Source: Methylomarinum sp. Ch1-1 (GTDB taxonomy: Bacteria; Pseudomonadota; Gammaproteobacteria; Methylococcales; Methylomonadaceae). From it: a DNA stretch of 64,000 nucleotides. Location: assembly GCF_030717995.2 (NCBI RefSeq), contig NZ_CP157743.1, positions 1,054,001-1,118,000 on the forward strand, given 5' to 3'. Both the position numbers and the translations under genes were made by a program. Below the pieces are notes generated by a model. The model saw only the letters and a program-made list of their open reading frames with translations, was not told the DNA's origin and did not search any database. Within the stretch, counting starts at the first letter, position 1. The number at the start of each line of letters is the position of its first letter. Below, one piece after another: positions 20,754 to 49,727 of the stretch.

Positions 20754-20760
20754 GGATAGT

Positions 20761-28464: not shown

Positions 28465-29448
28465 TCACAGAGCCAAATCGTCCAATGGACTGACCGTACC
28501 ATGCCCACCCAGATTCAACACATGGGTGTAAATCATCGTCGTTTCCACATCGTTATGGCCTAAAAGAGCTTGTATCGTGCGGATGTCGGTGCCGCGTTGC
28601 AATAAATGGGTGGCGAAGCTGTGACGGAATGTGTGGGCGCTGATTTTTTTACTGATGCCCAATTGCCGCACCGCTTTTTTGATTGCTTTGTTGACGGCCG
28701 ATTGATCGATATGATGGCGTCGTGTCATCGAACTGCGCGGATCTAGCGATAGCGTTTTTGCAGGAAACATGTATTGCCAACCCCATTCCTTGTCGGCGTT
28801 GGGGTATTTCTTTGCCAGGGCGAATGGGAGATAAACCGAGCCATATCCTCTCTCCAGGTCTTGCTCATGAATCAATTTGACTTTGGCCATATGCGCGCTC
28901 AATTGAGTCGTCAACGAAACCGGGAACGTTGACACTCTGTCTTTCTCGCCTTTGCCCGACCGGACCGTAACTTGCCTATAATCGAAATCGATATCCTGAA
29001 CTCTCATCCTAACTGCTTCAGTAATTCGCAAGCCGCTGCCGTAAAGCAGTTTGACGATTAATTGAGGAACGCCGTCCAACAAGGCGATAATGTTTTTGAC
29101 CTCGTCCTGCGTCAAAACGACCGGAATTCGGCGGTTTTTTCTTGACCGTACCGCATCGATCGGATTGTCCAGAGCTTGATCGAGGACTTTTCGGTATAGA
29201 AATACCAATGCATTCATAGCCTGGTTCTGAGTCGCCACCGAAACTTGGCGTTCAACAGCCAGATGAGTCAGGAAATCTTCGATTTTCTTTTCGCTGTCGA
29301 TAAACAACTCAGATCTGTCCGTCAGTCGGTGATATCTGACATACTGTTTAATCCAGTCGCAATAACTGCGTTCGGTATGGATCGAGTAATGCCGAAGACG
29401 CATGACGCGTCTTACTTCGTCCAATAGGGTGGGTTTCTGGCTTGACAT
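28465..29448 (-). CDS. intI: Integron integrase IntI (tyrosine recombinase)
   Basis: 327 aa from the ATG at 29448. All tyrosine-recombinase catalytic residues are visible: Arg in 'GSGLRITEAV' (about 141), His and Arg in 'HTFRHSFATHLL' (about 272/275), His in 'LGHNDVETT' (298) and Tyr in 'MIYTHV' (307). The IntI-specific extra domain is present as 'YPNADKEWGWQYMFPA' (about 215-230), which separates IntI from XerC/D. It recombines attI with attC sites to capture cassettes. It is transcribed away from the array, the usual arrangement. It appears intact. Confidence 0.95.
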   Translation of the reverse strand: MSSQKPTLLDEVRRVMRLRHYSIHTERSYCDWIKQYVRYHRLTDRSELFIDSEKKIEDFLTHLAVERQVSVATQNQAMNALVFLYRKVLDQALDNPIDAVRSRKNRRIPVVLTQDEVKNIIALLDGVPQLIVKLLYGSGLRITEAVRMRVQDIDFDYRQVTVRSGKGEKDRVSTFPVSLTTQLSAHMAKVKLIHEQDLERGYGSVYLPFALAKKYPNADKEWGWQYMFPAKTLSLDPRSSMTRRHHIDQSAVNKAIKKAVRQLGISKKISAHTFRHSFATHLLQRGTDIRTIQALLGHNDVETTMIYTHVLNLGGHGTVSPLDDLAL

Positions 29449-29645
29449 AAAGTGGCTTAGCAACTAGAGTCATTCGCAATAATACGCAGGCCAATATGCC
29501 TGATTTATCGGTTAATATCAACTTATCAAGGTAAAAATGCCTGTTTTTTCGGATATGCAGGAAAAAATTCCCGAATTACCAGTAATTATCAACTTATCAG
29601 GGAAAATTGACCTGATAATCAGTGGTTATGAACCAAGGAGGAGCT
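29449..29645 (+). promoter_or_regulatory. Candidate attI region and integrase/array promoter segment
   Basis: This A+T-rich gap lies between intI and the first cassette gene. It holds two 16-bp direct repeats differing at one base, TATCAACTTATCAAGG (29516-29531) and TATCAACTTATCAGGG (29587-29602), probably integrase-binding sites. The putative recombination point is G29625|TTATG, matching the G|TTATG right ends of attC sites further along. The intI promoter and the array promoter should be here, but no unambiguous -35/-10 pair can be chosen. Confidence 0.65.
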
Positions 29646-30212
29646 ATGGCGAAACATGAAATTTTAATAATTGAATCTCGGAGTCCACAAGATATCTTTG
29701 ATGATCGTTTTGAAGCTGGCACTTTAAAGCAGATTTTAAAGTTGCAAGAAGTGCATGCGAAACACATAGAAGTTGTAGATCGTGAATATTTGGCTAAAGC
29801 TATAAAGTACGCCGAAAAAGAACATATTCGCTACGTACATTTTAGTGCTCATGGTAATTCCAATGGTTTTGCGTTAACTGACGGTGATTTTATAACTTGG
29901 AGCGAGTTTGATGAAATAGCTTGGCCTCGGCTTAAAAATATCTGTTTATGTTTCTCAAGCTGTAGTGTTGGACAAGGTGCTGATGAGTTGTTTAACTATC
30001 ATAAATCTTTTTGCAACGCTATAGTTGCCCCGACTAGAAACGTTGGCTGGGGAGAAGCATTGGTTGCATTTTCTGCTTTATATCATCGAGCATTATCAAC
30101 AGATACCTCAACTGCACAGGACGTAAAAGTATTAAATCATATTGTTGGAGCCGGTACTTTTCGTTTGATTGAGTCACCCTATCGGACTACAACTTACGCT
30201 ATCGGCTCATAA
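29646..30212 (+). CDS. Cassette 1: standalone CHAT-like (caspase-fold) peptidase domain protein
   Basis: 188 aa from the ATG at 29646, which has an AAGGAGGAGCT ribosome site immediately upstream; the GTG and ATG further left lie across the attI junction. The core 'YVHFSAHGNSNGFALTDGDF' followed by 'ICLCFSSCSVGQGADELF' gives the CHAT/caspase dyad: His69 in SAHG and Cys106 in SSC. There are no TPR or other partner domains, unusual for CHAT proteins. A low-GC gene typical of cassettes. It could be a toxin or defence effector, but no partner gene is seen. Its stop overlaps the start of an attC site. Confidence 0.72.
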   Translation: MAKHEILIIESRSPQDIFDDRFEAGTLKQILKLQEVHAKHIEVVDREYLAKAIKYAEKEHIRYVHFSAHGNSNGFALTDGDFITWSEFDEIAWPRLKNICLCFSSCSVGQGADELFNYHKSFCNAIVAPTRNVGWGEALVAFSALYHRALSTDTSTAQDVKVLNHIVGAGTFRLIESPYRTTTYAIGS

Positions 30213-30234
30213 CAAGTGCATGTTGTCGGACTGG
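30207..30234 (+). other. Left half of an attC site, cut by an IS3-type end
   Basis: CTCATAACAAGTGCATGTTG continuing into TCGGACTG has the attC left-arm pattern (ATAACAA, then a TCGGA box) seen in the intact sites at 31109, 33659 and 34829. The matching right arm is missing. At 30235 the sequence changes to TGTAGTTCCCCCGGTTTAG, which looks like an IS3-family terminus. Confidence 0.65.
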
Positions 30235-30481
30235 TGTAGTTCCCCCGGTTTAGTGGACCCCTCGATCTAATTCAGACGAGGTGAAAAATGCCAGCGTACA
30301 AGAACCAGGAGAAGACAAGGCAGTACACGAATGAGTTCAAGGCCAAAGCTGTTAAGCTGACCCATCTGAGTGGGGCAAGCGTGAAGGGTGTTGCGGAAGC
30401 ACTGGATATCCATCCCTTCATGCTGTCCCGCTGGCGAAAAGAGTATCGGGAAGGCAAGATCGTGGCAGATAAACGCGAAAT
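30235..30481 (+). mobile_element. IS3-family fragment with truncated OrfA
   Basis: From TGTAGTTCCCCCGG at 30235, an ATG at 30288 starts 'QYTNEFKAKAVKLTHLSGAS' and 'VAEALDIHPFMLSRWRKEY', the helix-turn-helix OrfA of IS3-type elements. The frame is interrupted at about codon 65 by a hairpin repeat (30482-30558), and OrfB is absent, so the element is dead. It was inserted into the attC of the first cassette. Confidence 0.78.
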
Positions 30482-30558
30482 CAAGGGGTCAGCCAACTTG
30501 ATTTTGTCTAACTCTACTCCTTTTTAATTTTTTTCATTTCAAGCTGGCTGACCCCTTG
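30482..30558. mobile_element. 77-bp hairpin repeat (MITE/REP type)
   Basis: CAAGGGGTCAGCCAACTTGA (30482-30501) and a near-exact inverted partner (30539-30558, one mismatch) flank a short A+T-rich loop. It lies inside the IS3 OrfA. It belongs to the same general class of GGGG(T/A)CAG inverted-repeat units found elsewhere in the window. Confidence 0.75.
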
Positions 30559-30670
30559 AGCTTTCGCTAATACGCCCTACGCGGGCTGAGGAGCGAAGAA
30601 GGGAAAACCACACGTTACGTTCTAAGAATCGGAGGCGGGTGACCGCCTTCGGTGACCGGGTGGGAGGATT
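30559..30670. other. Remnant sequence upstream of a truncated cassette gene
   Basis: 112 bp of non-coding sequence containing GGGAAAACCACACGTTACG and a GGCGGGTGACCGCC hairpin. It resembles the 3' end of a group II intron in part, but the pairing is incomplete and no maturase is present. Treat as unidentified mobile-element debris. Confidence 0.3.
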
Positions 30671-30862
30671 GTGATTCCTTTCCGCCCCCCCTTCGATCTT
30701 GACCCCTTCGATCTTCTCAATATTGATACACTTGAAATGATTGAAGGTGATTTACCCAAAAGAGCAAAGAAATTGGTTATCGAGTGGGCAAAGATGAACA
30801 AGGATGAAATGAAAAAGATGTGGGATAGTCAAGAATTTCACAAATTGCCTCCCTTGGAGTGA
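30671..30862 (+). pseudogene. DUF4160 protein, N-terminally truncated
   Basis: 63 codons from GTG 30671. 'IDTLEMIEGDLPKRAKKLV' with 'IEWAKMNKDEMKKMWD' matches the C-terminal half of DUF4160 proteins, which are usually about 80-90 aa. The conserved N-terminal part with the HxPPHFH motif is missing and is replaced by a short Pro/Phe-rich leader from foreign sequence. DUF4160 and DUF2442 normally form a two-gene unit with toxin-antitoxin-like distribution. The truncation probably inactivates it. Confidence 0.72.
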
Positions 30863-30865
30863 TAA

Positions 30866-31114
30866 ATGAGATATCCAAAAGTAAAGTCAGCATTAGCAAT
30901 TGACAATCACACATTGGTTGTTGAGTTCGACAATAATCAGAAGAAAAAATACGATGTTACTCCGCTGTTAAATAAGGACATGTTTTATCCGCTAAATAAT
31001 CCTGCTTTTTTTAAGGCCGTCAGGGTTGAGCAAGGCGGGTACGCTGTAGTTTGGAATGAGAATATAGATATTAGCGAATATGAGTTGTGGAGTCATGGTC
31101 AAGCAATGCCATAA
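30866..31114 (+). CDS. DUF2442 family protein (cassette gene)
   Basis: 82 aa. It begins 'MRYPKVKSALAIDNHTLVVEF', has 'YDVTPLLNKDMFYPLNNPAFFKAV' and ends 'IDISEYELWSHGQAMP', the DUF2442 pattern (short helix-rich proteins paired with DUF4160). It follows the truncated DUF4160 frame by 3 nt. The stop codon lies in the left end of an attC site, as in normal cassettes. Confidence 0.88.
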   Translation: MRYPKVKSALAIDNHTLVVEFDNNQKKKYDVTPLLNKDMFYPLNNPAFFKAVRVEQGGYAVVWNENIDISEYELWSHGQAMP

Positions 31115-31197
31115 CAAAGCAAATTCACTCGGACTGCCAAAAGCTGCGCCGCTTCGCTATGCAGCTGTTGGCAGCCGGTGATTTGCGGCGTTATGTT
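31109..31197 (+). other. attC recombination site 2
   Basis: Left arm CCATAACAAAGC...CACTCGGACTGCC, central palindrome 'GCTGCGCC...GCAGC', right arm GGCAGCCGGTGATTTGCGGCGTTATG. Arms are complementary in the expected L/R boxes and the recombination point would be G31190|TTATG. About 87 bp, in cassette orientation. Confidence 0.85.
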
Positions 31198-31205
31198 TTT
31201 AAAGC

Positions 31206-31394: not shown

Positions 31395-31525
31395 TGAATT
31401 CCGGGAAATGAGTTTGCAGCCCAAAATCACGATTGTTGCGTTGCTCAATCCGTAAGGTACTGATTTTGGGTGAGCGCCGCCATAAAAATTTACGAAAACC
31501 AGAAATCTTCGTCCGTTGAAATCCT

Positions 31526-33139
31526 ATGCGCACCGTCAAGAATCCGCAAATGAGCCTCGGTCAGGTCGATATTGCCGACATCGAGATTAACCTCAAATCC
31601 AGAGACGACATCCCGCAACTGCTGCTAGGGTTGCAGTACATCTATACCACGCCCGAACTGCGCGACCGTGTGTTCGCCATCCTCGAGCAGGTTATTCCCT
31701 ACCGAAGCGGTCAGGGCCTTAGCGAAGCAGAGCGTCAGCAACCCGCTGACCCAAGGCGCGGTCGGCCCGGCCTGGAACAATGGAAAATTCTAGTGCTGGG
31801 CGTTTTGCGTCTGGGCCTGAATACCGACTACGACCGCATCCATGAACTGGCCAACCACCACAATACCATTCGACAGATGCTGGGCCATAGCGACTGGTGT
31901 GACGACACGAAGTATTCTCTCCAGCGCATCAAAGACAATCTAAGGCTGTTCACCCGGAACTGTTCGATCAAATCAACCAGGAAGTGGTCAGAGCCGGCCA
32001 TGCCCTGGTAAAAAAAAAGCCAAACGCTGGGCCAACCGTCCGCAGTGACTCGACTGCCGCCGCGACGGTCGACCACAGCGATAAACTGAGAGGGCGGTGC
32101 GATTCCTTTGTGGTCGAAACCGACGTCCATTTTCCGACCGACATCAACCTGCTGTATGATGCGATCCGCAAAGCTATTGAAGAGAGTCATACGCTGGCGA
32201 AACACTATGACCTGCCGGACTGGCGTCAATACCGGCACAACATCCGGCGACTCAAACAACAGTACCGAAGAGCTCAACAGCTCAAACGCTCCACCAGCCA
32301 GGATGAAAACAAACAAGCCGTACGGGAACAAGCCATCCAACAGGCTCATCAGACCTACCTGGACCTGGCGAGCGCCTACCTGGGCAAATCCGAGCGCACC
32401 TTAAAACAAGCCCTGGACCGTGGCGCCCTGGCCGATGAAACGCAGCCGTTGCAATCCTACCAGGCCTATGCCCGCCTGCTGCTGGACCAAATTGAGCGCC
32501 GCGTCATACGCAGCGAAACCATCCCTCATGCCGAAAAGATCTTCTCCGTGTTTGAACCGCACACCGAATGGATCAGCAAAGGCAAAGCTTCCGCTCCTGC
32601 TCACGCTCCTTACCTACATCCCTGTAGGCAAAGCAGGCGTCCCGGTTGAGTTGGGTTTAAGGGTCTGCGTGATGGAGGACCACCATCGCTTCGTTCTTCA
32701 CCACCTAGTGATGGAAAAGCAAACCGATGACAAAGTCGCCGTCGACATGGTCACCGAAACGCGCCGGCGCTTCCCCGAACTGACCGTGACCAGCTTCGAC
32801 AAAGGCTTTCACAGCCCGGCTAACCAAAAGGAACTGAAAAATCATCTGGAACAGGTGATTCTGCCCAAAAAAGGCCGACTCAGCGCCGCGGATCAAGCGC
32901 GGGAAGGCAGCAATGCTTTTAAACAACTACGCCACCAACACTCCGCCGTGGAATCGGCCATCAATGCCCTGGAGCATAACGGCTTGGATATCTGCCCCGA
33001 CCACGGCCTCGATGGCTTCAAACGCTATGTCGCACTGGCGGTCGTCTCGCGCAATATCAATCGGTTGGGCGCCATCCTGCGTCAGCAGGCGCAGGCGAAA
33101 GAAAAACGCAAGCGCGGCCCCTACCAACAAGCGGCCTGA
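31526..33139 (+). pseudogene. ISNCY-type transposase, frameshifted
   Basis: Reading through three frames gives one transposase of about 530 aa: 'MRTVKNPQMSLGQVDIADIE' at the start, then 'GHALVKKKPNAGPTVRSDST' and 'VESAINALEHNGLDICPDHG' in the other frames. A one-base shift lies near 31955. A 46-bp insertion (32589-32634), bounded by direct GGCAAAGC copies at 32581 and 32627, shifts the frame again. Both make it inactive. The IS interrupts the Sel1-like cassette. Exact IS ends could not be set. Confidence 0.8.
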
Positions 33140-33188: not shown

Positions 33189-33214
33189 CAGACCGGTGAA
33201 TGGCCCGCTAATGA
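33189..33214 (+). other. Possible right-arm remnant of an attC site
   Basis: CAGACCGGTGAATGGCCCGCTAATG resembles the right arm of neighbouring attC sites (CCGGTGA..., then CG(T)TATG) but with changes, and it has no left arm. It sits just before the next cassette gene, after the ISNCY element, where an attC right end would be expected. Confidence 0.35.
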
Positions 33215-33642
33215 AGAAATCAGACGAGACAGCGATGGATTTTTTCCGGAAAATGGCCTGGGTTGATCAAAATGAGTGTGGCAAAAGTTGGGTATCGGTT
33301 GAAAAAAAAGCTTTTTCTGTCAGACACTACATAGTTGGGGGAAATGGCGTCACTCCAGATAGCACTAGGAGTCAGTATTGGCTGGAAAGGTCATTGGAGT
33401 CTGGTTTTGAAGAAACAATTGCAACAGATCCCACTTGGTTCAGAAAGGATGTAAGTGAACTAAATTATCGGCTATACATTGGCAATATAACTCTTCATTT
33501 TGCAACGTTCGAAGCTGCCAAGAAAGAATCTGAAAAGCTTATGCTTGGTGAACCAGAACTCAGGATTGAAATATTAACTGAAACAGAAGGCGTAGATTTT
33601 TGGGCGTATGAATACGAAAACAAACAATGGATGCCTTCTTGA
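33211..33642 (+). CDS. Hypothetical integron cassette protein
   Basis: 143 aa from ATG 33211; ATG 33235 ('MDFFRKMAWVDQ') is an alternative. Soluble, no signal peptide, no membrane segment, rich in aromatic and acidic residues, ending 'GVDFWAYEYENKQWMPS'. I recognise no family. It is A+T-rich relative to the chromosome and is followed 17 nt later by an attC site, so it is a cassette gene. Confidence 0.7.
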   Translation: MKKSDETAMDFFRKMAWVDQNECGKSWVSVEKKAFSVRHYIVGGNGVTPDSTRSQYWLERSLESGFEETIATDPTWFRKDVSELNYRLYIGNITLHFATFEAAKKESEKLMLGEPELRIEILTETEGVDFWAYEYENKQWMPS

Positions 33643-33658: not shown

Positions 33659-33739
33659 ACATAACAAGCGCATAAACTCGGACCACAAAAAGCTCCGCTG
33701 TGCTCCGCTTTTTGCGCCCGGTTATGCTTGTCGTTATGC
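33659..33739 (+). other. attC recombination site 3
   Basis: Left arm CATAACAAGCGCATAAACTC then GGACCACAAAAAGC; right arm GCTTTTTGCGCCCGGTTATG followed by CTTGTCGTTATG. Inner arms pair (CAAAAAGC with GCTTTTTG). Recombination point G33733|TTATG. Same orientation as the others. Confidence 0.85.
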
Positions 33740-33806: not shown

Positions 33807-34142
33807 ATGCCAAATTTTGATCAAAACTTCGAAGCTACTCGCCTTGCCATGCTTGCCAAGCAATACCCTGAGGTTGTGAAAGAAAATGGCAAAGTGGTTT
33901 TCTGTGCGGAAGATAATGAGGCTCGCTTGAGCGGCACTCGTTGGATGGTTGAAGACGAAATTTTTGAGAAGGCTACTGAGTCAGGGTTCAAAGTGCACCT
34001 AATTGAATTGCTTGATAATTTTATTCAATATCGGGATCAATGCAGTGAACTACCGAAAAAGGAAGGTGTAGTTCATTTTGGTGATGGTGGCTTAAATATC
34101 GAATGGCTGCCTCACGGGTCTACTGACTTATCCAATAGTTAA
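33807..34142 (+). CDS. Hypothetical cassette protein
   Basis: 111 aa, soluble, acidic ('FDQNFEATRLAMLAKQYPEVV', 'HFGDGGLNIEWLPHGS'). AAAGGAAAC ribosome site. No family recognised. It shares one cassette with the UDG-like gene 13 nt downstream, an uncommon two-gene cassette, so the two products may work together. Confidence 0.72.
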   Translation: MPNFDQNFEATRLAMLAKQYPEVVKENGKVVFCAEDNEARLSGTRWMVEDEIFEKATESGFKVHLIELLDNFIQYRDQCSELPKKEGVVHFGDGGLNIEWLPHGSTDLSNS

Positions 34143-34155
34143 TTTGAGTTTACTC

Positions 34156-34815
34156 ATGGATAATAAAGAAATTTCCGAAATAAGTTGTATTGATGAGTTG
34201 ATGGCTGCTTGGAAAGAGGCATTCCCGGAGGGATGGCACTTCAACCACGACGGTGTGATCTCAAAAGAGAATTGGGATATTAGTGGAAAAAGAGTTTTGT
34301 TTGTTTTAAAGGAAACAAATAAAGCCAAGCAGAATGTTGTTACTGCGATCAATAGAGCTATTGACGTTAAGAAAAGTGGATGGTGGAAAGGAAAGGTTCT
34401 TCGTCGGGTGGGACGATGGGCTTACGGGATTCAAAATTATGATGGGGTTGTGCCGCCACTCAAAGATGCAAAGCTAAATGAAAAAAACGCAATTAAGAAC
34501 ATTGCATACATAAATATAAGGAAGACTTCTGGGAGTGCTACAACCAATAAGAAGGCGTTTGATACACATGCTAGTGAGTTTGCTCCTTTTGTTAGAAGGC
34601 AAGTTGAGTTGATAAAGCCTGATGTTGTTGTGCTTTGCGGTACATATAGTCAAGTTAAACGCTATATATTCCCCGAGATTAAAAAAGTGAGTGAGCGGGT
34701 TCATGTGCATGAGGGGGTTGTCTTTATTAACGCTTTCCACCCTGCCGCAAGGAAAAAATCGGCAATTCTTTACCATCAAGTGCTCGACAATTATCACGCT
34801 TACAAAAATCTTTAA
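34156..34815 (+). CDS. Uracil-DNA-glycosylase-superfamily-like cassette protein
   Basis: 219 aa from ATG 34156. 'GKRVLFVLKETNKAKQN' in the first third, 'VELIKPDVVVLCGTYSQV' in the middle, and 'VVFINAFHPAARKK' near the C-terminus follow the order of motifs in UDG-fold proteins (core strand, 'P-D-V-V-v-l-G', late HP loop). The catalytic assignment is uncertain because the usual motif 1 is altered. It could be a nucleic-acid-binding protein with no glycosylase activity. Followed by an attC site. Confidence 0.5.
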   Translation: MDNKEISEISCIDELMAAWKEAFPEGWHFNHDGVISKENWDISGKRVLFVLKETNKAKQNVVTAINRAIDVKKSGWWKGKVLRRVGRWAYGIQNYDGVVPPLKDAKLNEKNAIKNIAYINIRKTSGSATTNKKAFDTHASEFAPFVRRQVELIKPDVVVLCGTYSQVKRYIFPEIKKVSERVHVHEGVVFINAFHPAARKKSAILYHQVLDNYHAYKNL

Positions 34816-34828: not shown

Positions 34829-34901
34829 CGCATAACAAGTTGCTGCACTCGGAAAAATCACTCGCTACGCTCCTGATTTTCCGGTGAGCAAGGCGTTAAG
34901 T
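34829..34901 (+). other. attC recombination site 4
   Basis: GCATAACAAGTTGCTGCACT then CGGAAAAATCA on the left; TGATTTTCCGGTGAGCAAGG then CGTTAAG on the right. The arms GGAAAAATCA/TGATTTTCC pair, with a small terminal loop. Recombination point G34895|TTAAG. Confidence 0.85.
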
Positions 34902-34909: not shown

Positions 34910-35128
34910 ATGAAGCACGGACTAATTTGCCAGCTAGATGAAAGGAACGGAGAAACGGTTCTGGTTCTGCATGATGCGGCTAAGACTGGAGCCAGCTTTC
35001 AGGGTGCCACTCTTTTCACTGAACTGCCTGAACCTATAGAAATCGCCATTCACAATAAAGAGTTAATGGCGCAGCTCGCAGAGAACATTCTCATTCGTCT
35101 AGCTATTTTAAATGGCATTGAGATATGA
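34910..35128 (+). CDS. Hypothetical cassette protein, 72 aa
   Basis: Starts 15 nt after the attC point. 'MKHGLICQLDERNGETVLVL' then a mixed alpha/beta sequence ending 'ILIRLAILNGIEI'. No family recognised, no membrane segment. Its own attC site is not seen: an IS66 element begins 32 nt after its stop and may have displaced it. Confidence 0.6.
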   Translation: MKHGLICQLDERNGETVLVLHDAAKTGASFQGATLFTELPEPIEIAIHNKELMAQLAENILIRLAILNGIEI

Positions 35129-35159: not shown

Positions 35160-36834
35160 GTAAGTATTCACACACCCTAGCTGAAAATACAAAATAATTG
35201 ACAAACCGACACAAGAACATTGTACAAATCCATTAAGAAGCCTTAGTATTTATCCCATGCAACTCAGTAACCAGGACCTAAGCCAAATCGATGAAGACGA
35301 GCTTCTCAATTTACCGGAAGAGGAATTACGTTACCTATCGATTAAGTTACTTAACGACCTAAAAGAAGCGCGTGAGCGCTTAAGCCAAAATTCGCGCAAC
35401 AGCTCTCGTCCACCTAGCAGCGAAGCGCCTTGGGATAAAGCAGCTACAGATAATACAAACGATCAAGAACAAACGGAGATCGATAAGTCTGCTGAAACGG
35501 AAGACACCGTCACCCCCCCCGTCGCCTTCTAAAAAAAGATCAGCAACAGTCCGCTGATCCTAACAATGAACATCAAGAACCCCGCAAACCCGGCAAACAA
35601 CCAGGCGCACAAGGCTTTGGCCGAACACAAAAGCTAGCCATTACCCACTATCAAGATCATTACCCTGAAATATGTGCCTGCTGCCATCAAACATTAGAGC
35701 CGCGTCATGCTATCGCCTATGCCGCGTATGAAACAATCAATGTCGAATGGGGCGATGTTGAGCATCCAGGCATTCTAGTCACCCATACCAAGCACACTCT
35801 CTATGAAGTAGTGTGCGCCAATGGACATATCACGCGCAAAGAAGTCAGTCGTAGCAGTCATGCTCAATTGCCGGGTATTAGCCGAACTGAATGGCGTTTA
35901 GTGGGGCCTGGACTGGCAGCAATGATTGTTTGTCTTGCCTACCGTATGCGCCTATCGCGTGAGCGTATTCAGGAATTTTTATATGACTGGTTAGGTATTA
36001 AATTAAGTGTTGGCACCATCAATAATACCCTGCATGAAGTGGCGCAGCGGCTATGCCGCTTGAAGATGAGTTTGCACAAGAAATCATTAACAGCGAATTG
36101 CTGCATGTAGACGAAACCTCCTGGATGGAGCACACGACTTTTCTTTGGTTATGGGTGTTCAGTACGAATCGCGTCACAGCCTATTGGATTGCTACGCGTA
36201 GCGCTGAATTATTGGAAAATCTTTTAGGCGACGACTTTAATGGTTGGTTAATGAGCGATGGCTACACGGTTTATCGCAAATATCTGAGTCGGTTACGTTG
36301 CTGGGCTCATCTTCTGCGTAAAGCGAAAGGGCTCAATGAAAGCTTAAACAGAGACGCCCAGCTTTTGGTCAACAAACGCACGATTTACTGGCTGTGTTGA
36401 TAGGTGCGGTACGCAAAGCGCGAATAACACCACCTGATACGCCACTTTCTGAAACTTATCGCCTGCAATTACTGCTCTATCAGCAGATGTGTATACAAAT
36501 GAAAACCCATGAACATAAGAAAACAGCAGCATTAGCCACGGAAATGCTAAATGACTGGACAGCTATTTTTCAAGTTCTGGATCAACCGCATCAGCCCTTA
36601 ACGAATAATGAAGCGGAGCGAGCGTTGCGCCACTGGGTTATTTTACGCGGCATTTGCTATGGCACGCGCTCGGAAAATGGGACGCGTGTGTTCGCTATTT
36701 TAATCAGCGTCATTGAAACCTGCCGCAAAAGAAATCAGTCACCGTGGATTTATTTGGCACAAGTGATCGCAAGTCAGCGGTCAGGCTTGCCGGTACCGGC
36801 CTTGCCAATTGTTAGGGTGTCTGAATAATTACTC
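35160..36834 (+). mobile_element. IS66-family insertion sequence (defective)
   Basis: Left terminus GTAAGTATTCACACACCCTA (35160) and right terminus (36812-36834) are imperfect inverted repeats with the IS66 GTAA start. Only the large transposase region is present, without TnpA/TnpB. No matching 8-bp target duplication is visible at the flanks, so one end may have been rearranged. Confidence 0.78.
35257..36828 (+). pseudogene. IS66 transposase (TnpC), multiply frameshifted
   Basis: The N-terminal piece has 'NSRNSSRPPSSEAPWDK', the IS66 'NSSkPPSSD' linker. The next pieces carry the zinc-binding 'CACCHQTLEPR' region, 'LLHVDETSWMEHTTFLWLWV' (catalytic Asp), 'WAHLLRKAKGL' and 'PLTNNEAERALRHWVILRGI' (C-terminal Glu). 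At least three frame changes (near 35520, 36060 and 36390) separate them, so no full-length protein is made. Confidence 0.85.
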
Positions 36835-38195: not shown

Positions 38196-38326
38196 CCGCT
38201 ATGCTTGAAGCGATTGCGCGAGGTTAAACTGAATACGTCATTGAGCAGTGCCGTGGCGGTAAAGGTAGGCTTTCGATTACTGCGTTGCGTGTACCTATTT
38301 TCAACAAGAATGCATGGAAATTAGTC

Positions 38327-39049: not shown

Positions 39050-39065
39050 TGAAGGTTGAAACACC

Positions 39066-41363: not shown

Positions 41364-41458
41364 AATTGGTAATGATTAGTTTGAGAAAGTAGCGACTTTT
41401 TTTCGTCGCCGGATTGTTACCTTGTGTTTGATAAATTTAAACGTATGAGGAAAGATTT

Positions 41459-41788
41459 ATGGCTACACATCACGCATCATCCAATGAAGTTGTTGACTTG
41501 GCAACTTGGGCACAAGACGTCCCGAATGAAAAATCAAAAGTCATTATGAAAACAGACGACATGGAACTTGTCCGCCTGGCTCTTCCGGCGGGTAAAGAAT
41601 TTGCAGATCACAAAGTTTCAGGACCTATCGTGGTTCATTGCATAAGCGGAAAAATTGAGTTTGTAGCCATGCAGACAACACAAGCATTAACATCCGGCCA
41701 GCTAGTTTATTTAATGCCGGACGAACCGCACGCCGTGAAAGCCGTGCTGGATTCAGTGGTGCTACTCACAATCATCTTTAAAGCCTAA
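41459..41788 (+). CDS. Cupin-domain protein
   Basis: 109 aa. Single cupin barrel: 'LVRLALPAGKEFADHKVSGP', 'HCISGKIEFVA', 'SGQLVYLMPDEPHAVKAV'. Metal-ligand His in 'EPHAVKA' is present, while motif 1 has only one clear His. Its function is unknown; small cupins of this kind often sit beside NO reductase genes. GAGGAAAG ribosome site. Confidence 0.82.
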   Translation: MATHHASSNEVVDLATWAQDVPNEKSKVIMKTDDMELVRLALPAGKEFADHKVSGPIVVHCISGKIEFVAMQTTQALTSGQLVYLMPDEPHAVKAVLDSVVLLTIIFKA

Positions 41789-41838
41789 ACCGTTAGCGCC
41801 ATGCCGGATAAATTATTCAAGTAACGCTGCTCTATACC

Positions 41839-42213
41839 ATGATGCAACAGCCAAAACAACATTATCGGTTCAGGATTAAAAGGGTATACGAACTGCCGGA
41901 CAAGCATGACGGCCGACGCATCCTCGTGGACAGGCTCTGGCCGCGCGGTTTGACAAAGGAAAAAGCAAGCATTGATCTGTGGCTCAAAGATATCGCTCCC
42001 AGTACGGAGCTGCGGAAATGGTTTGACCACGACCCGGGCAGGTGGGAAGCATTCAAGGAACGGTATCTAGATGAACTCAAGGGTAATCACGAGCAAATCC
42101 AGCGCTTAAAGCAGGAACTGGACAAGGGTATCGTGACGCTCGTCTATGCAGCAAAGGACGAAGAGCATAACCAGGCAATTGTGATCCAGGAAAACGATTG
42201 GCTTTTCCTTTAA
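41839..42213 (+). CDS. DUF488 family protein
   Basis: 124 aa. '[20 protein letters not shown]', '[20 protein letters not shown]' and '[13 protein letters not shown]' are the DUF488 signature. The function is unknown; these proteins are common next to heme or nitrogen-oxide stress genes. No membrane segment. Confidence 0.92.
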
Positions 42214-42229
42214 TTGGAGAGGACGATTA

Positions 42230-42856
42230 ATGTACCACTACAGTTTGTTCGCCTGTCATGAGGAACGTCACTCCATGAGTTCATTTGAATCTTTGCTAAC
42301 CGAAGTGCAAGACTGCCGTATTTGCGCAGCACATCTGCCGCATGGACCCCGGCCCATTCTACAGATGCACCCGCAAGCTCGTATATTGATTGCCAGCCAA
42401 GCACCAGGAACAAAAGTTCATGAATCCGGAATACCTTTCGATGATGCCAGCGGTGATCGTTTGCGTGAGTGGATGGGGGTGACGCGCGAAGTCTTTTACG
42501 ACTCGAAACAGATCGCAATTCTGCCAATGGGTCTTTGTTTTCCCGGCACGGGTAAATACGGTGACCTTCCGCCACGGCCCGAATGCGCGGAGACATGGCG
42601 CGATCAACTTCTCGGTCACCTGCACCATCTTGAAGTGACGTTGATTGTTGGACAGTATGCACAGGCGTATCACATCAACGAAGTACGAGCCTCACTTACC
42701 GAGACGGTTCGTGGCTGGCAATCCCATTGGCCCAAGATAGTCCCCCTTCCGCATCCAAGTCCGCGAAATAATATTTGGCTTAGCCAAAATCCGTGGTTCG
42801 AGAAGGAGTTGCTCCCTATGCTTAAGCAGCGAATAACCGAGGCGCTCGAAAGATAA
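42230..42856 (+). CDS. Uracil-DNA glycosylase family protein
   Basis: 208 aa; the ATG at 42275 is an alternative that gives the more typical N-terminus 'MSSFESLLTEVQDCRICAAH'. Motif 1 'ILIASQAPGTKVHESGIPF' and the late 'LPHPSPRNNIWLSQNPWF' (HPS loop) place it in the UDG superfamily. Only two of the cysteines expected for an iron-sulfur family 4/5 UDG are seen. NO deaminates DNA bases, so a base-repair enzyme beside qNor makes sense, as inference. Confidence 0.82.
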   Translation: MYHYSLFACHEERHSMSSFESLLTEVQDCRICAAHLPHGPRPILQMHPQARILIASQAPGTKVHESGIPFDDASGDRLREWMGVTREVFYDSKQIAILPMGLCFPGTGKYGDLPPRPECAETWRDQLLGHLHHLEVTLIVGQYAQAYHINEVRASLTETVRGWQSHWPKIVPLPHPSPRNNIWLSQNPWFEKELLPMLKQRITEALER

Positions 42857-42928
42857 AAGCAATGCACCCCTTTTTTTGTTTTCGGTATCGAAATCATTGC
42901 ATTAACTCTAGCTCACAGGAGAAACAGC

Positions 42929-43100
42929 ATGTCTGATATTTAAAAAATATCAATGCAGGGAATGCGAACATATCTACGATGAAGCAAAAGGTGATCCTGA
43001 TAGTGGCCTTGCTCCCGGAACCCGTTGGGCCGACATACCGGATGACTGGTCTTGTCCGATCTGTGGAGCACCTAAAGATTTTTTTAAACTGATGGAATAA
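42929..43100 (+). pseudogene. Rubredoxin, frameshifted at the start
   Basis: After an AGGAGA ribosome site an ATG at 42929 begins 'MSDI' and meets TAA at once. In the +1 frame from 42939 the sequence reads '[19 protein letters not shown]' and then '[17 protein letters not shown]' with all four iron-binding Cys (two CxxC). A two-base loss in the T run, or one extra base, explains the shift. The rest is perfect rubredoxin, so this is a recent mutation, a sequencing error or a translational frameshift. Confidence 0.82.
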
Positions 43101-43181
43101 GCCATCACGTCAGCCGTGACAATAGGTCTCGAAAACATCGGGCTTCTGCCTCTTTGGTACAACATATTGGAAAGGTAAATT

Positions 43182-43529
43182 ATGCAAGCAGAAAACACAC
43201 CCAAACCCAAAGGACTCGACGGCGCCGAAATCGCCAGGGCCAGCGAGTTGGTGGACTACCAGGATGGCTCCATTGTTAGCCGCGAAATTGTCAAAAAGCC
43301 AACGGGTAACGTGACAATCTTCGCGTTCGATGAAGGACAAGGCCTGAGCGAACATACGGCGCCCTTCGATGCCCTTGTGCATGTGTTCGAAGGTGAAGCG
43401 GAAGTCAGTATTGCAGGCAAACCAAATCACTTGCAAGGAGGCGATATGATTCTCATACCCGCGCAGCAACCGCACAGTCTTAAGGCGCTGAAGCAATTCA
43501 AGATGATTCTTACGATGATTCGATCCTGA
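43182..43529 (+). CDS. Cupin-domain protein
   Basis: 115 aa. 'VTIFAFDEGQGLSEHTAPFD' then 'VFEGEAEVSIAGKPNHLQGG' and 'PAQQPHSLKALKQFKM' give a complete single-cupin fold with metal-binding His/Glu. The pattern resembles the small cupins annotated near NorR-type or redox-stress genes. AAAGGTAA ribosome site. It is the last gene of the NO-linked block. Confidence 0.88.
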   Translation: MQAENTPKPKGLDGAEIARASELVDYQDGSIVSREIVKKPTGNVTIFAFDEGQGLSEHTAPFDALVHVFEGEAEVSIAGKPNHLQGGDMILIPAQQPHSLKALKQFKMILTMIRS

Positions 43530-45257: not shown

Positions 45258-45664
45258 AAAAGGGGACAGATTTATTTTTGGCACCTCAATGATAAGGGAA
45301 TATTCCTTTCTGAAACTCACTCCCGGATAATCGATGATCCGGCGACTTACCCGTAGTCAAGTTTTCAGCGCCATTGCAGGATGAAACAGCGAATTTGATT
45401 GGTTAGACATCGAGCCTTGTTACAAAGCGTTGGGAAACATTGAAACTGAGCGAGCTTCACTTTATACACTGAGTTTGTTTATGGCGCGATACCGGAAGGG
45501 TGAATGGGTACGCATCCATGAGGCGGTTCAACGAAAGTTGCTTACCGGCACCAGTCGTTTTACCGACCAGATAGAAAAAATTATTGGAATGGGGGCGAGA
45601 GCAGGGGGAAGGGAAGGCCGCAAAAAGAAACTGAAGACATGAAAAATAAATCTGTCCCCTTTTT
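45258..45664 (+). mobile_element. RAYT-derived non-autonomous element, copy 1 (407 bp)
   Basis: Bounded by AAAGGGGACAGATTTATTTT and the inverted AAAATAAATCTGTCCCCTTT. Inside, 45390-45642 still encodes the C-terminal tail of a REP-associated tyrosine transposase: 'KALGNIETERASLYTLSLF', 'RIHEAVQRKLLTGTSRF' and 'IEKIIGM'. The catalytic HUH domain is deleted. A second, near-identical copy is at 50152-50534. Confidence 0.8.
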
Positions 45665-45678
45665 ACTATGGCTAATCA

Positions 45679-46083
45679 ATGGTTAGGTTTTATATGTGGA
45701 GCGGAATATACAAACGGTGGAACCCAATACCTTCCCTGGAAGGTGAGCGCCTATATCTCGAAGCTGTCCACGACGATTGGGAAGGCATAAGAGTATGGCT
45801 GCGACCTGAAGATAGAACAAAGCCTATGGCTATATTTAAGTTCAAAACCGTAGAAGCGTACTATGCGTCGAATGAAAGTAACCGGATATGCCAAATATCG
45901 CCAAAGCAGACGTTGGATTTTCCGCATGCGTTTTGGCTAGTGGATAATTCTGAGTTTCTTGCTATCGTCAGCAAGCAATCTTGTGGAACAATGCGGGAAG
46001 GGCTTTCTCATTTCTCCTTCTTGTCTTGTGAAGATTGCATTGATGTATTGGCTTGGGAACCGGAGGTTGTATTTGAAACCTAA
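45679..46083 (+). CDS. Hypothetical integron cassette protein
   Basis: 134 aa from ATG 45679; the ATG at 45694 is an alternative. Trp- and acid-rich soluble protein ('IYKRWNPIPSLEGERLYLEA', 'WLRPEDRTKPMAIFKFKTVE'), with no family I recognise. It resembles immunity-type cassette proteins in composition only. Its stop codon falls in the left arm of an attC site, confirming cassette status. The start of the cassette has been replaced by the RAYT-derived element. Confidence 0.7.
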   Translation: MVRFYMWSGIYKRWNPIPSLEGERLYLEAVHDDWEGIRVWLRPEDRTKPMAIFKFKTVEAYYASNESNRICQISPKQTLDFPHAFWLVDNSEFLAIVSKQSCGTMREGLSHFSFLSCEDCIDVLAWEPEVVFET

Positions 46084-46164
46084 CCAGCGGGTCAACTTGA
46101 CCGGCCAAAGCTGCGCTCCTATCGTCGCGATGCTTTCGCCGTCAAGTTACTTTTATCGTTAGCT
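46078..46164 (+). other. attC recombination site 5
   Basis: ACCTAACCAGCGGGTCAACT then TGACCGGCCAAAGC on the left; GCTTTCGCCGTCAAGTTAC then TTTTATCGTTAGC on the right. L boxes TCAACTTGAC/GTCAAGTTA pair. Recombination point G46158|TTAGC. Confidence 0.8.
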
Positions 46165-46186
46165 GATCAAACACAGGAGACTAGCA

Positions 46187-46819
46187 ATGGCTAAAAGAAA
46201 CTATTTGAATCGTATCATAGTGACATTTTTTGGGATCGTAATTTTATTCACAGTATTGAGTGAAAACGCCTTTGCACATTGCGACACGCTTGATGGCCCA
46301 GTGGTACAAACAGCAAGGATAGCGCTTGAAAAAGGCGATGTAACACCACTGTTTAAATGGGTGCAGGCCGATGATGAAAAAGAGATTCGAACCGCTTTCC
46401 AAAAGACCATCGCAGTTCGTGCCAAGGGCGCCGAGGCCAAAGAATTAGCTGATATGTACTTCTTCGAAACTCTGGTTCGCATTCATCGTGCTGGTGAAGG
46501 AGCGCCATATACCGGTTTGAAACCGGGTGAAGCTGTGGATCCAGCCGTCGCCTTAGCCGACAGTGCTTTGGAAACAGGGTCGGTTGACAAGCTCGTCGAT
46601 GTCTTAACAGAAGCCATGGCCAATGGCATTCGCGAGCGTTTTCAGCACACTAAGGAAACTCAGAAGCACGCCGATGACTCCGTGGCGGCCGGTCGTGAAT
46701 TTGTCAAAGCCTATGTCATCTTCACGCATTATGCGGAAGGCTTGCACGCTACGATAAAAGCAAATGCCGACCACCATTTTGGGGAAGCTAACAGCCAAAG
46801 TGGGCATGATCACAAGTAA
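46187..46819 (+). CDS. DUF6448 family secreted protein (cassette gene)
   Basis: 210 aa. Signal peptide about residues 1-30 ('IIVTFFGIVILFTVLSENAFA'-type core ending before His-Cys). The mature protein begins 'HCDTLDGPVVQTARIALEKG' and contains 'ELADMYFFETLVRIHRAGEG' and 'APYTGLKPGE', hallmarks of DUF6448. It has a His-rich tail ('ADHHFGEANSQSGHDHK'), possibly metal-binding. Function unknown, periplasmic. It fills one cassette between attC sites at 46158 and 46885. Confidence 0.85.
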   Translation: MAKRNYLNRIIVTFFGIVILFTVLSENAFAHCDTLDGPVVQTARIALEKGDVTPLFKWVQADDEKEIRTAFQKTIAVRAKGAEAKELADMYFFETLVRIHRAGEGAPYTGLKPGEAVDPAVALADSALETGSVDKLVDVLTEAMANGIRERFQHTKETQKHADDSVAAGREFVKAYVIFTHYAEGLHATIKANADHHFGEANSQSGHDHK

Positions 46820-46820
46820 T

Positions 46821-46891
46821 CATCTAACCAGGCGCTCCACCCGACCAAAAACCGCGATGCGGTTTTCGTCGGGTGAGCTTGGTCGTTAACA
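46821..46891 (+). other. attC recombination site 6
   Basis: ATCTAACCAGGCGCTCCACC then CGACCAAAAACCGC on the left; GCGGTTTTCGTCGGGTGAGC then TTGGTCGTTAAC on the right. CACCCGAC/GTCGGGTG and AAAACCGC/GCGGTTTT pair exactly around a 4-nt loop. Recombination point G46885|TTAAC. Confidence 0.88.
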
Positions 46892-46942
46892 GTATCTGGC
46901 TCGGAGCCTTGACAATAATTATAACGTAACTACAATGTAATT

Positions 46943-47236
46943 ATGAGCCATTATTCCTTTGACTGGGATCCTCGCAAGGATGCCGCTAATCGCAAGAAGC
47001 ATGACGTCTCGTTCCAGGAGGCCAAAACTGCCTTTACGGATGAGTTCGCACGTCTTATAGCTGACCCAGACCATTCTGAAGAGGAGGACCGGTTCATTCT
47101 CCTCGGCACAAGCATTCATTCTCGCTTACTGGTGGTGTGCCACTGCGTTAGGGACGGTGAAATCATTCGAATTATCTCCGCCCGCAAGGCAAATAGGCGA
47201 GAACGAAATACTTATGAAGGGTACAGACATGCGTGA
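46943..47236 (+). CDS. brnT: BrnT-family toxin (type II toxin-antitoxin)
   Basis: 97 aa. 'FDWDPRKDAANRKKHDVSFQ' at the start and 'IIRIISARKANRRERNTYE' at the end are the BrnT signature (RelE-like ribonuclease fold that blocks translation). The conserved basic/His residues of the active site are retained. The antitoxin gene overlaps its 3' end. The pair makes up one integron cassette, where toxin-antitoxin units are thought to stabilise arrays. Confidence 0.92.
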   Translation: MSHYSFDWDPRKDAANRKKHDVSFQEAKTAFTDEFARLIADPDHSEEEDRFILLGTSIHSRLLVVCHCVRDGEIIRIISARKANRRERNTYEGYRHA

Positions 47237-47438
47237 TCATTACGATTTTTCCGATTCCGTTAAGAATCCATACGCTAAGAAGCTCAAGAAGCAGGTTACG
47301 ATCCGGCTGGATGAAGATACCGTTGCGTACTTCAAAAATCTTGCTGAGAAAAAGGACCTTCCGTATCAAAGCCTTATCAACCTATACCTGCGTGATTGCG
47401 CTCAGTCACACAAGGATCTGAAAATTGAGTGGCAGTGA
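47229..47438 (+). CDS. brnA: BrnA-family antitoxin
   Basis: 69 aa from ATG 47229, chosen for its GAAGGG ribosome site; ATG 47214 is the alternative. 'MRDHYDFSDSVKNPYAKKLK' then the ribbon-helix-helix core 'KQVTIRLDEDTVAYFKNLA' and 'SLINLYLRDCA'. It binds and neutralises BrnT and represses the pair. Overlaps brnT by 8 nt. Confidence 0.9.
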   Translation: MRDHYDFSDSVKNPYAKKLKKQVTIRLDEDTVAYFKNLAEKKDLPYQSLINLYLRDCAQSHKDLKIEWQ

Positions 47439-47528
47439 ACTGTTAACAAGCGGCTTCTGTCGGACAGGCCCAAAGCTCCAGCCAAAAAACGGCCTCCACT
47501 TTGGCCTGCCGCAGAGCCGGGCGTTAGC
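47439..47528 (+). other. attC recombination site 7
   Basis: ACTGTTAACAAGCGGCTTCT then GTCGGACAGGCCCAAAGC on the left; CTTTGGCCTGCCGCAGAGC then CGGGCGTTAGC on the right. CAGGCCCAAAG/CTTTGGCCTG pair with one bulged base. Recombination point G47523|TTAGC. Confidence 0.85.
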
Positions 47529-47536
47529 CATCAAAT

Positions 47537-48031
47537 ATGACAGACAAAACGACAACAAAAGAAATTACACCGGAAGAGTACGCATCTGCCTTTGAAGGAA
47601 AAGAAGCAGAAGCACTAAAACAGGCCCTAGACATTAGAAAGTTTGAGATAGAGTTGTATTGGAAACGTGCCACATATTTCTGGACATTCATCGGCGCAAC
47701 AATGGCGGGTTTTCTTGCAGTTCAAGCATCGTCCGCCCAAAACAAACAAGATCTTGCTGTAATCCTGTCATGCCTTGGCATGGTATTTTCTTTTGCATGG
47801 GTATGCGTGAACAGAGGTAGCAAATTCTGGCAGGAGAACTGGGAAAAGCATGTTGATGTTTTAGAAGACAAAGTCACCGGGCCACTTTACAAAATTGTAA
47901 TGTCCCGAAACACAATGAATAAATTCGGAGAAAAGGCCGCTCATTTAATTACGGGGCCATCATCAATTTCTGTATCCAAGGTTAATCAACTGAAGTTTCC
48001 CAATTTTTTGAGGGCAAGGAATATCAGATAA
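47537..48031 (+). pseudogene. RipA-like membrane protein of a cassette, 3' end replaced by an IS
   Basis: The N-terminal 150 codons (to 47988) carry an acidic start, 'DIRKFEIELYWKRATYFWTF' and two membrane helices around 'IGATMAGFLAVQA' and 'AVILSCLGMVFSFAWVCV', as in proteins annotated RipA-family octameric membrane proteins (family name from recall). Codons after 47988 are IS sequence. The missing end continues in frame at 49562 across the element. In its present form the protein lacks its last membrane segment. Confidence 0.65.
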
Positions 48032-49555
48032 TGCTAATATTCAGCTTAAACATTAGCCGGCTCTAATATTGATTGTTAGGCTATGCCGAATCTCATTAAA
48101 AACAATAGCTTATGGGTGAATGAGGTCGCCTTTTGTAGTATAATATTGGTTTCTAAATCATTGATTACACAAACAAAAGGGCCTCATTCATGTTCATTTT
48201 ACGCGATCTTCTCCGCCCTCTCCAAGCCCATTTTTCCGAGACTGATCTGGGACGGGAGCGAGCTTCTTTGTTTGTCTACACGCTGCTCGCCGTGATTGTT
48301 CCGTTTACCTCATCGATGTCGTCTAATTTATGGCGGGCCTTGGAGACTTTGTTCGGGATCGAGATTAAGCAAAAGCGGTTCTATACCTTCATGGCTTCGT
48401 CGACACTGCCCTGGGAAAGGCTTTGGACGACGCTGTGGGGATTGATTCCGTCCCCCACGACCGATGGCCGCTTATTGATTGGCTTGGACGATTTTATCAA
48501 CCTCAAAGTGGGTCAACACATTTTCGGCTGCGCGTCGATTTTCGATCATGCCGCCAAAGCGAATCAAAGCCGTTACCCCTGGGCGCAAAATGTGGTGTCG
48601 ATCGGCTTACTGAAGCAGGTCAAAGGTCGTTGGGCCTGTTTGTTTTTGGGCTTTCGTTTTTACTTACCCCGTCACATGATCGCCGAACAAAAGGAAACCG
48701 CCAAAATCAAAGGCCAAGTCGCGCCGTTTCAAAGCAAACTCACGCAAGCGGCGGAATTGCTAATCGCCGTCGCCGGTCACTTTGCTTCGACACCAATGCT
48801 GGCGGTCACCGACAGCTGGTTTGGGAATCAGGGGTTATGGAAGCCGGTGCGCCAAACGGTAGGCGAACGTTTTCACCTGTTATCCCGATTGCGCAGCAAC
48901 CAGGTGCTCTATGCGCTCCCCGACGCCCGGTCCGCCGATGCCAAGACACGCGGACGCCCCCGTAAATACGGCCAGCGTCTGGGGACCGTGACCGACCGAG
49001 CGCACGCGCTCCGGCAGCAAACTGCTGCCTATCAGGTTAACCTGTATGGCAAAGTACGCGAAGTACTGGCGGTTGAGAAAACCGTCATGCTGAAGACCTT
49101 AAAATGCCCCATCAAGGTCGTGTGGGTGTTTCGTAAAACCCAGTGGGTCGCCTTGTTTACGACCGATCTCGACTTGTCGGTCACCCAGGTCATCGAATAT
49201 TATGGCGCTCGCTGGAAGATCGAGTCCGGCTTTAAAGAACTCAAGCAAGACATTGGCAGTCAAAAATGCCAGAGCCGGAATGCCCAGGCCGTGATAAACC
49301 ACCTGCATTTCTGTATGATGGCCACCACGGTCACCTGGATGTACGCCGATCGCATCAAAGCGGATCCGCAACGTCGGCACAAGGTCAAGGGGCGGACGAG
49401 TTTCGCCTTTTCCGATGTCCGGCGCCTCATCGCCGAAGCCTCACTGAGTGAAGATTTTGATAGGCTTTGCCATAAACCCACCAATCCCATGAAAAATTCG
49501 CTGGTCGCGGTGTTGTTACGCATGGTGGCTTGAGGCGTTTTTAGGAAACTTCAGT
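47989..49555 (+). mobile_element. Complete insertion sequence, IS4-like, 1567 bp, with 6-bp target duplication
   Basis: Inverted ends ACTGAAGTTTCC (47989-48000, left) and its complement (49544-49555, right). Direct duplication TAATCA at 47983-47988 and 49556-49561. It contains one intact transposase gene. The clean ends and duplication indicate a recent, possibly active insertion, into the RipA-like cassette gene. Confidence 0.85.
48190..49533 (+). CDS. IS4-like DDE transposase
   Basis: 447 aa, intact. DDE regions: 'RLLIGLDDFINLKVGQHIFG' (first Asp), 'MLAVTDSWFGNQGLW' (second Asp), and 'YYGARWKIESGFKELKQDIG' (Glu of the Y-x2-R-x3-E-x6-K signature). An alternative frame through the middle is a shadow. 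Subfamily cannot be fixed by eye: the 6-bp duplication is unusual for classical IS4 and IS701. Confidence 0.88.
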   Translation: MFILRDLLRPLQAHFSETDLGRERASLFVYTLLAVIVPFTSSMSSNLWRALETLFGIEIKQKRFYTFMASSTLPWERLWTTLWGLIPSPTTDGRLLIGLDDFINLKVGQHIFGCASIFDHAAKANQSRYPWAQNVVSIGLLKQVKGRWACLFLGFRFYLPRHMIAEQKETAKIKGQVAPFQSKLTQAAELLIAVAGHFASTPMLAVTDSWFGNQGLWKPVRQTVGERFHLLSRLRSNQVLYALPDARSADAKTRGRPRKYGQRLGTVTDRAHALRQQTAAYQVNLYGKVREVLAVEKTVMLKTLKCPIKVVWVFRKTQWVALFTTDLDLSVTQVIEYYGARWKIESGFKELKQDIGSQKCQSRNAQAVINHLHFCMMATTVTWMYADRIKADPQRRHKVKGRTSFAFSDVRRLIAEASLSEDFDRLCHKPTNPMKNSLVAVLLRMVA

Positions 49556-49561
49556 TAATCA

Positions 49562-49727
49562 AATCATCAGCCTTTATGTTTTTATTCTCTGGGTATGTTT
49601 ATTAGTTTATTCTCTACCAGAGTTTGGCTGCGGAAAACCTTTAAATTGGTGTAACTACTCACCCCTAAAAAAAGTCAAAAAAAGACTTGACAGGTTTTTC
49701 GGTGCAAAAAAGACGTTTTCCGACTGA
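49562..49727 (+). pseudogene. 3' part of the interrupted RipA-like gene
   Basis: Removing 47989-49561 (the IS plus one TAATCA copy) joins ...'SKVNQ' to 'IISLYVFILWVCLLVYSLPE' and runs open to TGA at 49725-49727, giving 205 codons. The added piece is a third membrane helix. The last 25 codons overlap the left end of an IS66 element (GTAACTACTCACCCC at 49651), so the natural C-terminus may have differed. Confidence 0.6.

Follow-up and report, generated by a model that had tools for sequence, protein, structure and literature searches.

The DNA analysed here, a stretch of 64,000 nucleotides from the genome of Methylomarinum sp. Ch1-1 (contig C2, positions 1054001-1118000; genome of 4.77 Mb in three contigs), hereafter the window, most probably carries an old sedentary chromosomal integron of a methanotroph, in which an integrase gene (intI) and its adjoining attI site lead into a same-strand array of attC sites. 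In the same reading, copies of attI that stand elsewhere without intI would be former platforms (intI plus attI) that lost or were parted from their integrase gene. The elements of the integron in window coordinates, with bit scores from a covariance model (R2), are:

28465-29463, minus strand: intI, coding for a full-length integron integrase of 332 amino acids (IntI-A; TIGR02249, alignment with 2a3v, tree)
29469-29631, plus strand: attI, crossover core GTTATGA at 29625-29631 (86% identical copy, congener homologue, homology end at GTTA)
30207-30238, plus strand: half attC (R'' and L''), cut by the end of an insertion sequence (IS), read from sequence
31109-31196, plus strand: attC 1 (R2 62.8 bits; fold z -6.5)
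33659-33739, plus strand: attC 2 (R2 58.6 bits)
34830-34901, plus strand: attC 3 (R2 54.2 bits)
46078-46164, plus strand: attC 4 (R2 39.5 bits)
46822-46891, plus strand: attC 5 (R2 49.7 bits)
47441-47529, plus strand: attC 6 (R2 50.2 bits)

The integrase, attI, and attC sites of the window

IntI-A carries the additional domain specific to integron integrases: it scored 443 bits against TIGR02249 (cut-off 265), and its IntI-type insert aligned with the nearest solved structure, IntI4 (2a3v, E 3e-92), as did its catalytic R, HxxR, GH, and Y stretches; the XerD and XerC models gave 146 bits each. In a tree of 34 proteins, IntI-A fell among the IntIs, with the host's own XerD and XerC outside (branch 100/99), and these two outgroup proteins were checked by family as one XerD and one XerC. 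The best matches in named genomes came from Methylomonas and other Methylococcales (67-72% identity), followed by Desulfobulbaceae (66%); the host is a relative of Methylomonas. The reading frame is full-length and its catalytic stretches align, and the protein may be an active recombinase.

The attI site adjoins intI and has an 86% identical copy at C2:2816313-2816472 and a homologue in a congener. We place the crossover at G29625 because copies in the congener G099 and elsewhere in the host genome align up to GTTA and then differ; among seven attI copies, pairwise identity was 53-92% over the 115 columns before the core and 9-43% over the 30 columns after it. Two direct repeats can be read in the stretch between intI and the first cassette.

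The six attC sites lie in one orientation, their bottom strands fold (z -2.9 to -6.5, site 5 being folded as 46820-46889), and together with the half site they are of mixed sequence. A motif scan for R''/R' and L''/L' complementarity, the R box letters of which were fitted to these six sites, returned exactly the six on the plus strand and none on the minus strand, compared with a mean of 0.92 sites on both strands together (maximum 5) in 60 dinucleotide shuffles. An initial covariance model (R1) drew six of its ten sites from the window; its scores for the window sites (47-82 bits) are circular, and R1 was therefore replaced by R2, which has 47 rows picked by R1 in 40 loci, none from the window, and is held out by sequence, not by motif choice (at least three rows are reverse strands of stronger matches, left in, and one is the attC of the host's second integron). 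R2 found all six sites at 39.5-62.8 bits (E 2.6e-12 to 8.9e-7), and the best window match other than the opposite strand of a site reached 13.2 bits. When 40 genomes were drawn from the phylum, 30 gave no R2 match at E 0.001, and the ten positive ones include the host and one genome that alone has 100 matches. Covariation over ten sites (six from the window) was reached in none of 500 shuffles, and an Rfam scan of the window gave no family at gathering score. A further attC candidate near 48031-48081 was dropped for its poor fold (z -0.9) and its position within an IS701 end that recurs in the loci L109 and L110.

The original prediction, made by a model from the sequence without database searches, had named an IntI with its diagnostic extra domain, a candidate attI, six same-direction attC sites, and a half site at 30207. 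All of these hold: motif scan, R2, and the bottom-strand folding that it had proposed agree on the attC sites, the homologous copies ending alike at GTTA fix the attI core at 29625, and the half site shows R'' and L'' followed by IS sequence. The attC starts at 31109, 33659, and 46078 were right, and those at 34829, 46821, and 47439 move to 34830, 46822, and 47441. A covariance search empty of attC, or a recombinase grouping with XerC/D, had been put forward as grounds for abandoning the idea; neither was found.

Such integrons are not rare in the family. An IntI match at E 1e-60 occurs in 103 of 237 family genomes (some matches being fragments or having stops) and in 81 of the 173 good assemblies, and with R1 at E 0.01, attC turned up in all 20 genomes searched, nearly every one of which had been selected for its IntI. 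A larger array is that of G145, with 25 R2 matches in ~46 kb. A Methylococcales attC covariance model is already published (PMC8352920, PMC9176274). Taken by itself, the window integron adds a further case to a widespread type, and the earlier remark that a decayed array is less documented in this kind of organism does not stand.

A shared place in a congener

The genes that neighbour intI and attI in the window, at 17488-28379, do so in G099 as well (78% DNA identity); by reading, they look like an aryl-polyene cluster. Between window and G099, intI plus attI is 69% identical in DNA and the IntI protein 73% identical. A neighbouring oxidase gene lies beside intI only in the host and G099 among the loci compared, many of the others being short-flanked. 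The stable place across species that marks sedentary integrons is thus seen in one congener, and the common place and neighbours indicate that the platform is probably older than the divergence of the two species, as far as these sequences can tell. Its cargo is not visible in G099, where attI is followed by a RAYT-like (REP-associated tyrosine transposase; REP, repetitive extragenic palindromic) open reading frame (ORF) and then by cyo-like, ubiD-like, and aroE-like genes (names by reading). The right-hand edge of the host's array was not found: ubiD, which lies beyond attI in G099, is at C2:1490445 in the host, and in 19 kb around that point the sole match to the G099 stretch is the piece holding ubiD.

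attI copies without an integrase gene

Using the G099 attI as query, we searched 16 chosen genomes (the host, congeners G095-G099, and ten family genomes with strong IntI matches) and obtained 31 matches in 11 of them. Seven lie beside an intI match, two in the host and one each in G099, G128, G122, G095, and G193 (intI of G193 contains an in-frame stop); the other 24, among them the host's own at 2.82 and 3.02 Mb, have no intI match beside them. Apart from G193:C72, all of the latter were fetched (23 copies in 22 loci), each locus extending 1.9 kb or more from the core in the direction in which intI would be expected. By tblastn at E 0.001, 5' stubs of intI lie beside attI in three of the 22 loci (L191, L186, L200), and in L150 a recombinase 28-44% identical lies ~8 kb from attI. 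Of the 21 loci with a visible core, 20 have GTTA and one has GCTA, the second copy in L188 also having GTTA, and the homology of the extra sites with the platform attI spans about 50-170 bp.

Same-strand attC follow downstream in 12 of the 22 loci (a raw count), the nearest at 185 to 3579 bp, and seven loci have at least two; L110 has one further attC upstream of attI. Five of the ten loci without downstream attC end within 1.4 kb of the core, and a filter-free search of the other five yielded a single weak candidate, in L190 (22.1 bits), all else staying at or below 14.9 bits. The 22 loci are not all independent, two of them in G117 (L195 and L196) being near-identical duplicates. This pair is also an instance of an attI-led cassette cluster without intI that is doubled in one genome (99.8-100% identity over 2482 and 1400 bp). 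The literature that we searched, mostly open-access and without preprints, gave no report of intI-less attI copies leading attC clusters.

One such site can be followed across species. The host's copy at 3.02 Mb (L150) and a G099 copy (L181) follow the same nrd-like genes (by reading), with 85% identity between L150:12789-14715 and L181:2654-733 and 81% between the attI stretches, and tblastn at E 0.001 found no intI beside attI in either. After the core the DNA differs: G099 has a 161-amino-acid ORF ending in an attC at 3313-3420, and the host has other small ORFs. Conceivably the cargo changed after intI was gone, which needs IntI in trans, or intI was lost twice, or the DNA behind the core was rearranged otherwise, and the data fit these histories alike. 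Among the host's own copies, attI A and attI C are 91% identical over 115 columns, and attI D is 85% identical to the G099 platform and 65% to attI A; with D nearer to the G099 platform than to A, similarity does not simply follow species.

A second integron and scattered attC in the host

The original picture of one integron stands for the window and has to be widened for the genome, which also holds a second intact intI, scattered attC, and the intI-less attI. The second intI, at C2:2660024-2660980 (68% identity), belongs to another IntI lineage in the tree, and an attC lies ~4 kb on from it. Beside its attI, L014:16030-17789 holds a type II restriction enzyme, matched by PADLOC REase_II at 331 bits, and a DNA methylase; an IS66 copy and the attC lie beyond them.

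Without intI, attC occur in the host at 1.61, 1.85, and 2.81 Mb. The first is a single cassette with a SEC-C-like ORF (by reading); its attC, at C2:1613693, shares 93% identity over 71 bp with attC 4 of the window. The 2.81-Mb cluster includes an attI, the 2.82-Mb copy. One gene located between the attC sites of the 1.85-Mb cluster (L109:6969-8627) codes for an ATPase that PADLOC matched to NsnB, AriA, and GajA. Weaker attC were found by R2 alone at C2:1567129 and on the small contig C1, perhaps a plasmid; on this 81-kb contig, an attC-like stretch on the minus strand (L149:5224-5292, R2 41.6 bits) lies near recombinase-like ORFs.

Origin of the platforms and alternative explanations

We propose that IntI would have inserted circular cassettes at the attI core (29625), paired with the folded bottom strand of attC, and that such insertions would have built the same-direction array; the attI at 2.82 and 3.02 Mb would have been kept after losing or being parted from intI, one of the two with attC behind it. 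Several observations count against this account. The G099 platform has an intact intI, yet no attC in 36 kb beyond attI, and therefore the shared place does not show a shared array; the uninterrupted array that the original prediction had suggested seeking in congeners was not met with there. No intI remnant was detected by tblastn (E 0.001) beside attI in 19 of the 22 intI-less loci, which tells against loss since simple decay would often leave one. Downstream of the host's own 3.02-Mb attI there is no attC; of the three intI-less attC loci inspected in the host, those at 1.61 and 1.85 Mb lack attI in the sequence retrieved around them; and in G099, attI lies no more than 8 kb upstream at only two of the four attC places that R2 detected. 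Moreover, the loci were chosen by attI, and the share of attC clusters with attI cannot be read from them. Finally, we found no CTG-N10-CAG, the LexA consensus, near the start of intI.

Part of this evidence would suit a different origin for the scattered attC, in which an IntI encoded elsewhere inserted them off-target at attG-like sites; we consider this possible, somewhat on the unlikely side. The C2:1613693 cassette, the 1.85-Mb cluster, and the G099 count fit it, attG insertion has been described (Loot 2024, as cited in PMC12444791), and off-target insertion is one of three listed routes to clusters of attC sites lacking integron integrases (CALINs; PMC8618304). It does not predict, however, that 12 of the 22 intI-less attI lead into same-strand attC, a set that was picked by attI and is silent on attC without attI. 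The attI-like stretches might instead be a dispersed repeat (REP-like or a promoter element) that merely resembles attI; inverted TTATCAGG/CCTGATAA units can be read in them, and ten of the 22 loci have no good downstream attC, although five lie within 1.4 kb of a contig end. This is very unlikely, given that seven of the 31 copies stand beside intI in the attI position and that homology stops at the core, GTTA in nearly every visible locus. Recent arrival of a mobile integron, followed by IS invasion, would account for the IS elements and foreign operon in the array (listed below) and for close IntIs in other genera and phyla; the same place and genes in a congener, with intI diverged to 73% protein identity, make it very improbable. 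An ordinary enzyme of the XerC/D type accompanied by chance palindromes in place of attC is favoured by the Xer scores of IntI-A and a reverse-strand R2 match of 25.6 bits, and is as good as refuted by the TIGR02249 score, IntI insert, tree, held-out R2, and shuffles.

With these alternatives weighed, the reading of an old sedentary integron with former platforms is retained: part of the scattered attC clusters probably go back to platforms whose intI was lost or became separated from them, others are without attI, and two origins may thus coexist. Service of intI-less attI by an IntI encoded elsewhere is a plausible hypothesis. The further idea of a distributed integron, in which one or two IntI serve several dispersed attI in trans, most without their own intI, is tentative and we lean away from it; if true, cassettes would be captured and exchanged at many chromosomal places, and the nrd site, intI-less in both species yet with different DNA behind it, would be a trans-served site. 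The intI-less attI bear on the question of which of three listed routes (PMC8618304) leads to scattered attC clusters. A retained attI favours the route of a lost or parted integrase, and if the sites are used in trans, the capture points of a genome would outnumber its integrases. A tool whose models cover attC but just the known attI classes would be expected to miss retained attI.

Cassettes, insertions, and damage in the array

29646-30212, plus strand: first cassette ORF, likely ATG 29646, assigned to no family (sequence)
30288-30527, plus strand: TnpA-like ORF after the half attC (40 bits, below cut-off 74)
30671-31114, plus strand: cassette with DUF4160 and DUF2442 ORFs (family match)
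31526-33139, plus strand: ISNCY-family transposase in pieces, between attC 1 and attC 2 (NF033593 in three ORF pieces)
33196-33642, plus strand: cassette ORF without Pfam, NCBIfam, or PADLOC match
33807-34815, plus strand: two-ORF cassette, the second ORF weakly uracil-DNA-glycosylase-like (PF03167, E 0.0016, below cut-off)
34910-35128, plus strand: 72-amino-acid ORF after attC 3, beyond which the array breaks off
35160-36832, plus strand: IS66 copy, sharing 99.8% identity over 1674 bp with the IS66 next to the second intI
37041-43529, plus strand: foreign block of cytochrome P450, NAD-binding oxidoreductase, quinol-type nitric oxide reductase, cupin-like ORF, small ORF, uracil-DNA glycosylase, and cupin (families)
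45258-45663, no strand: element like a miniature inverted-repeat transposable element (MITE), 406 bp, perfect 22-bp inverted ends; it ends the insert and the array resumes after it
45679-46083, plus strand: cassette ORF without Pfam, NCBIfam, or PADLOC match
46187-46819, plus strand: cassette ORF, DUF6448 (family match)
46943-47438, plus strand: BrnT/BrnA-type toxin-antitoxin cassette (family match)
47537-47989, plus strand: 8xMP-family cassette ORF (PF24838), cut by the IS701 copy
47990-49554, plus strand: IS701-family element (NF049999, 358 bits; ends CTGAAGTTTCC, target duplication TTAATCAA)

The likely ATG of the first cassette ORF is shortly preceded by AGGAGG. The longer frame at 29622-30212 had no match in Pfam, NCBIfam, or PADLOC, and the ORF has HFSAHG and CFSSCS stretches reminiscent of a caspase/CHAT-like peptidase. 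No Pfam match was found for the ORFs at 29622, 31206, 33196, 33807, 34910, and 45679.

The array has been invaded, as originally predicted: ISNCY, IS66, and IS701 copies and a MITE-like element lie in it, and ~10 kb of foreign DNA between attC 3 and attC 4 splits an array that continues on both sides. The predicted start at 28465 is kept and the end at 49727 is not, the last visible attC ending at 47529 and the IS701 copy, with its 8-bp target duplication, cutting the last cassette at 47990. The IS66 copy beside the second intI has an 8-bp target duplication (by reading); the window copy has none at its flanks, which differ, and therefore something was presumably rearranged next to it. Loci of G117 and G128, which belong to another genus, match the stretch 38298-42900 at 82-86% identity, whereas the congener G099 reaches 76% over the nitric oxide reductase gene and 83% over a 339-bp piece; this closeness to another genus points to horizontal gain. 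The ISNCY, IS66, and IS701 copies and the MITE would have broken the array later, and a rearrangement beside the IS66 copy may have joined the nitric-oxide-reductase operon into it.

A similar MITE-like stretch lies at 50140-50535, so placed that the two copies flank the second part of the array; one of them has ends AAAAGGGGACAGATTTATTTTT, and further copies occur in L109. Farther on, the ORFs at 60365-61432 and 61644-62333 stand in tandem and share a long near-identical stretch with a CxxCH motif, and those at 58886-59590 and 63147-63854 resemble paralogues (both by reading).

Comparison with known systems

In its IntI, attI, same-strand attC array, and conserved place, the window integron is like the sedentary chromosomal integrons of Methylococcales and Xanthomonas; in Xanthomonas, the place of intI is downstream of ilvD, the gene has often been inactivated, and CALINs occur elsewhere in about half of the genomes (PMC12444791). 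What sets the host apart is a neighbouring pigment-type biosynthesis cluster (by reading), the presence of two IntI lineages in one genome, and intI-less attI copies. Its dispersed attC clusters and single cassettes without intI are like CALINs and their single-site counterparts (SALINs, single attC lacking integron integrases), already known to be scattered over genomes, with many in Shewanella (PMC9229058). Off-target inversions between attI and attI-like sites by IntI have been seen experimentally (PMC10127599), compared with which the extra sites described here are homologues of the platform attI, known from sequence. In essence, part of these loci differ from CALINs and SALINs in keeping a recognisable attI, and are attI-led rather than just clusters of attC.

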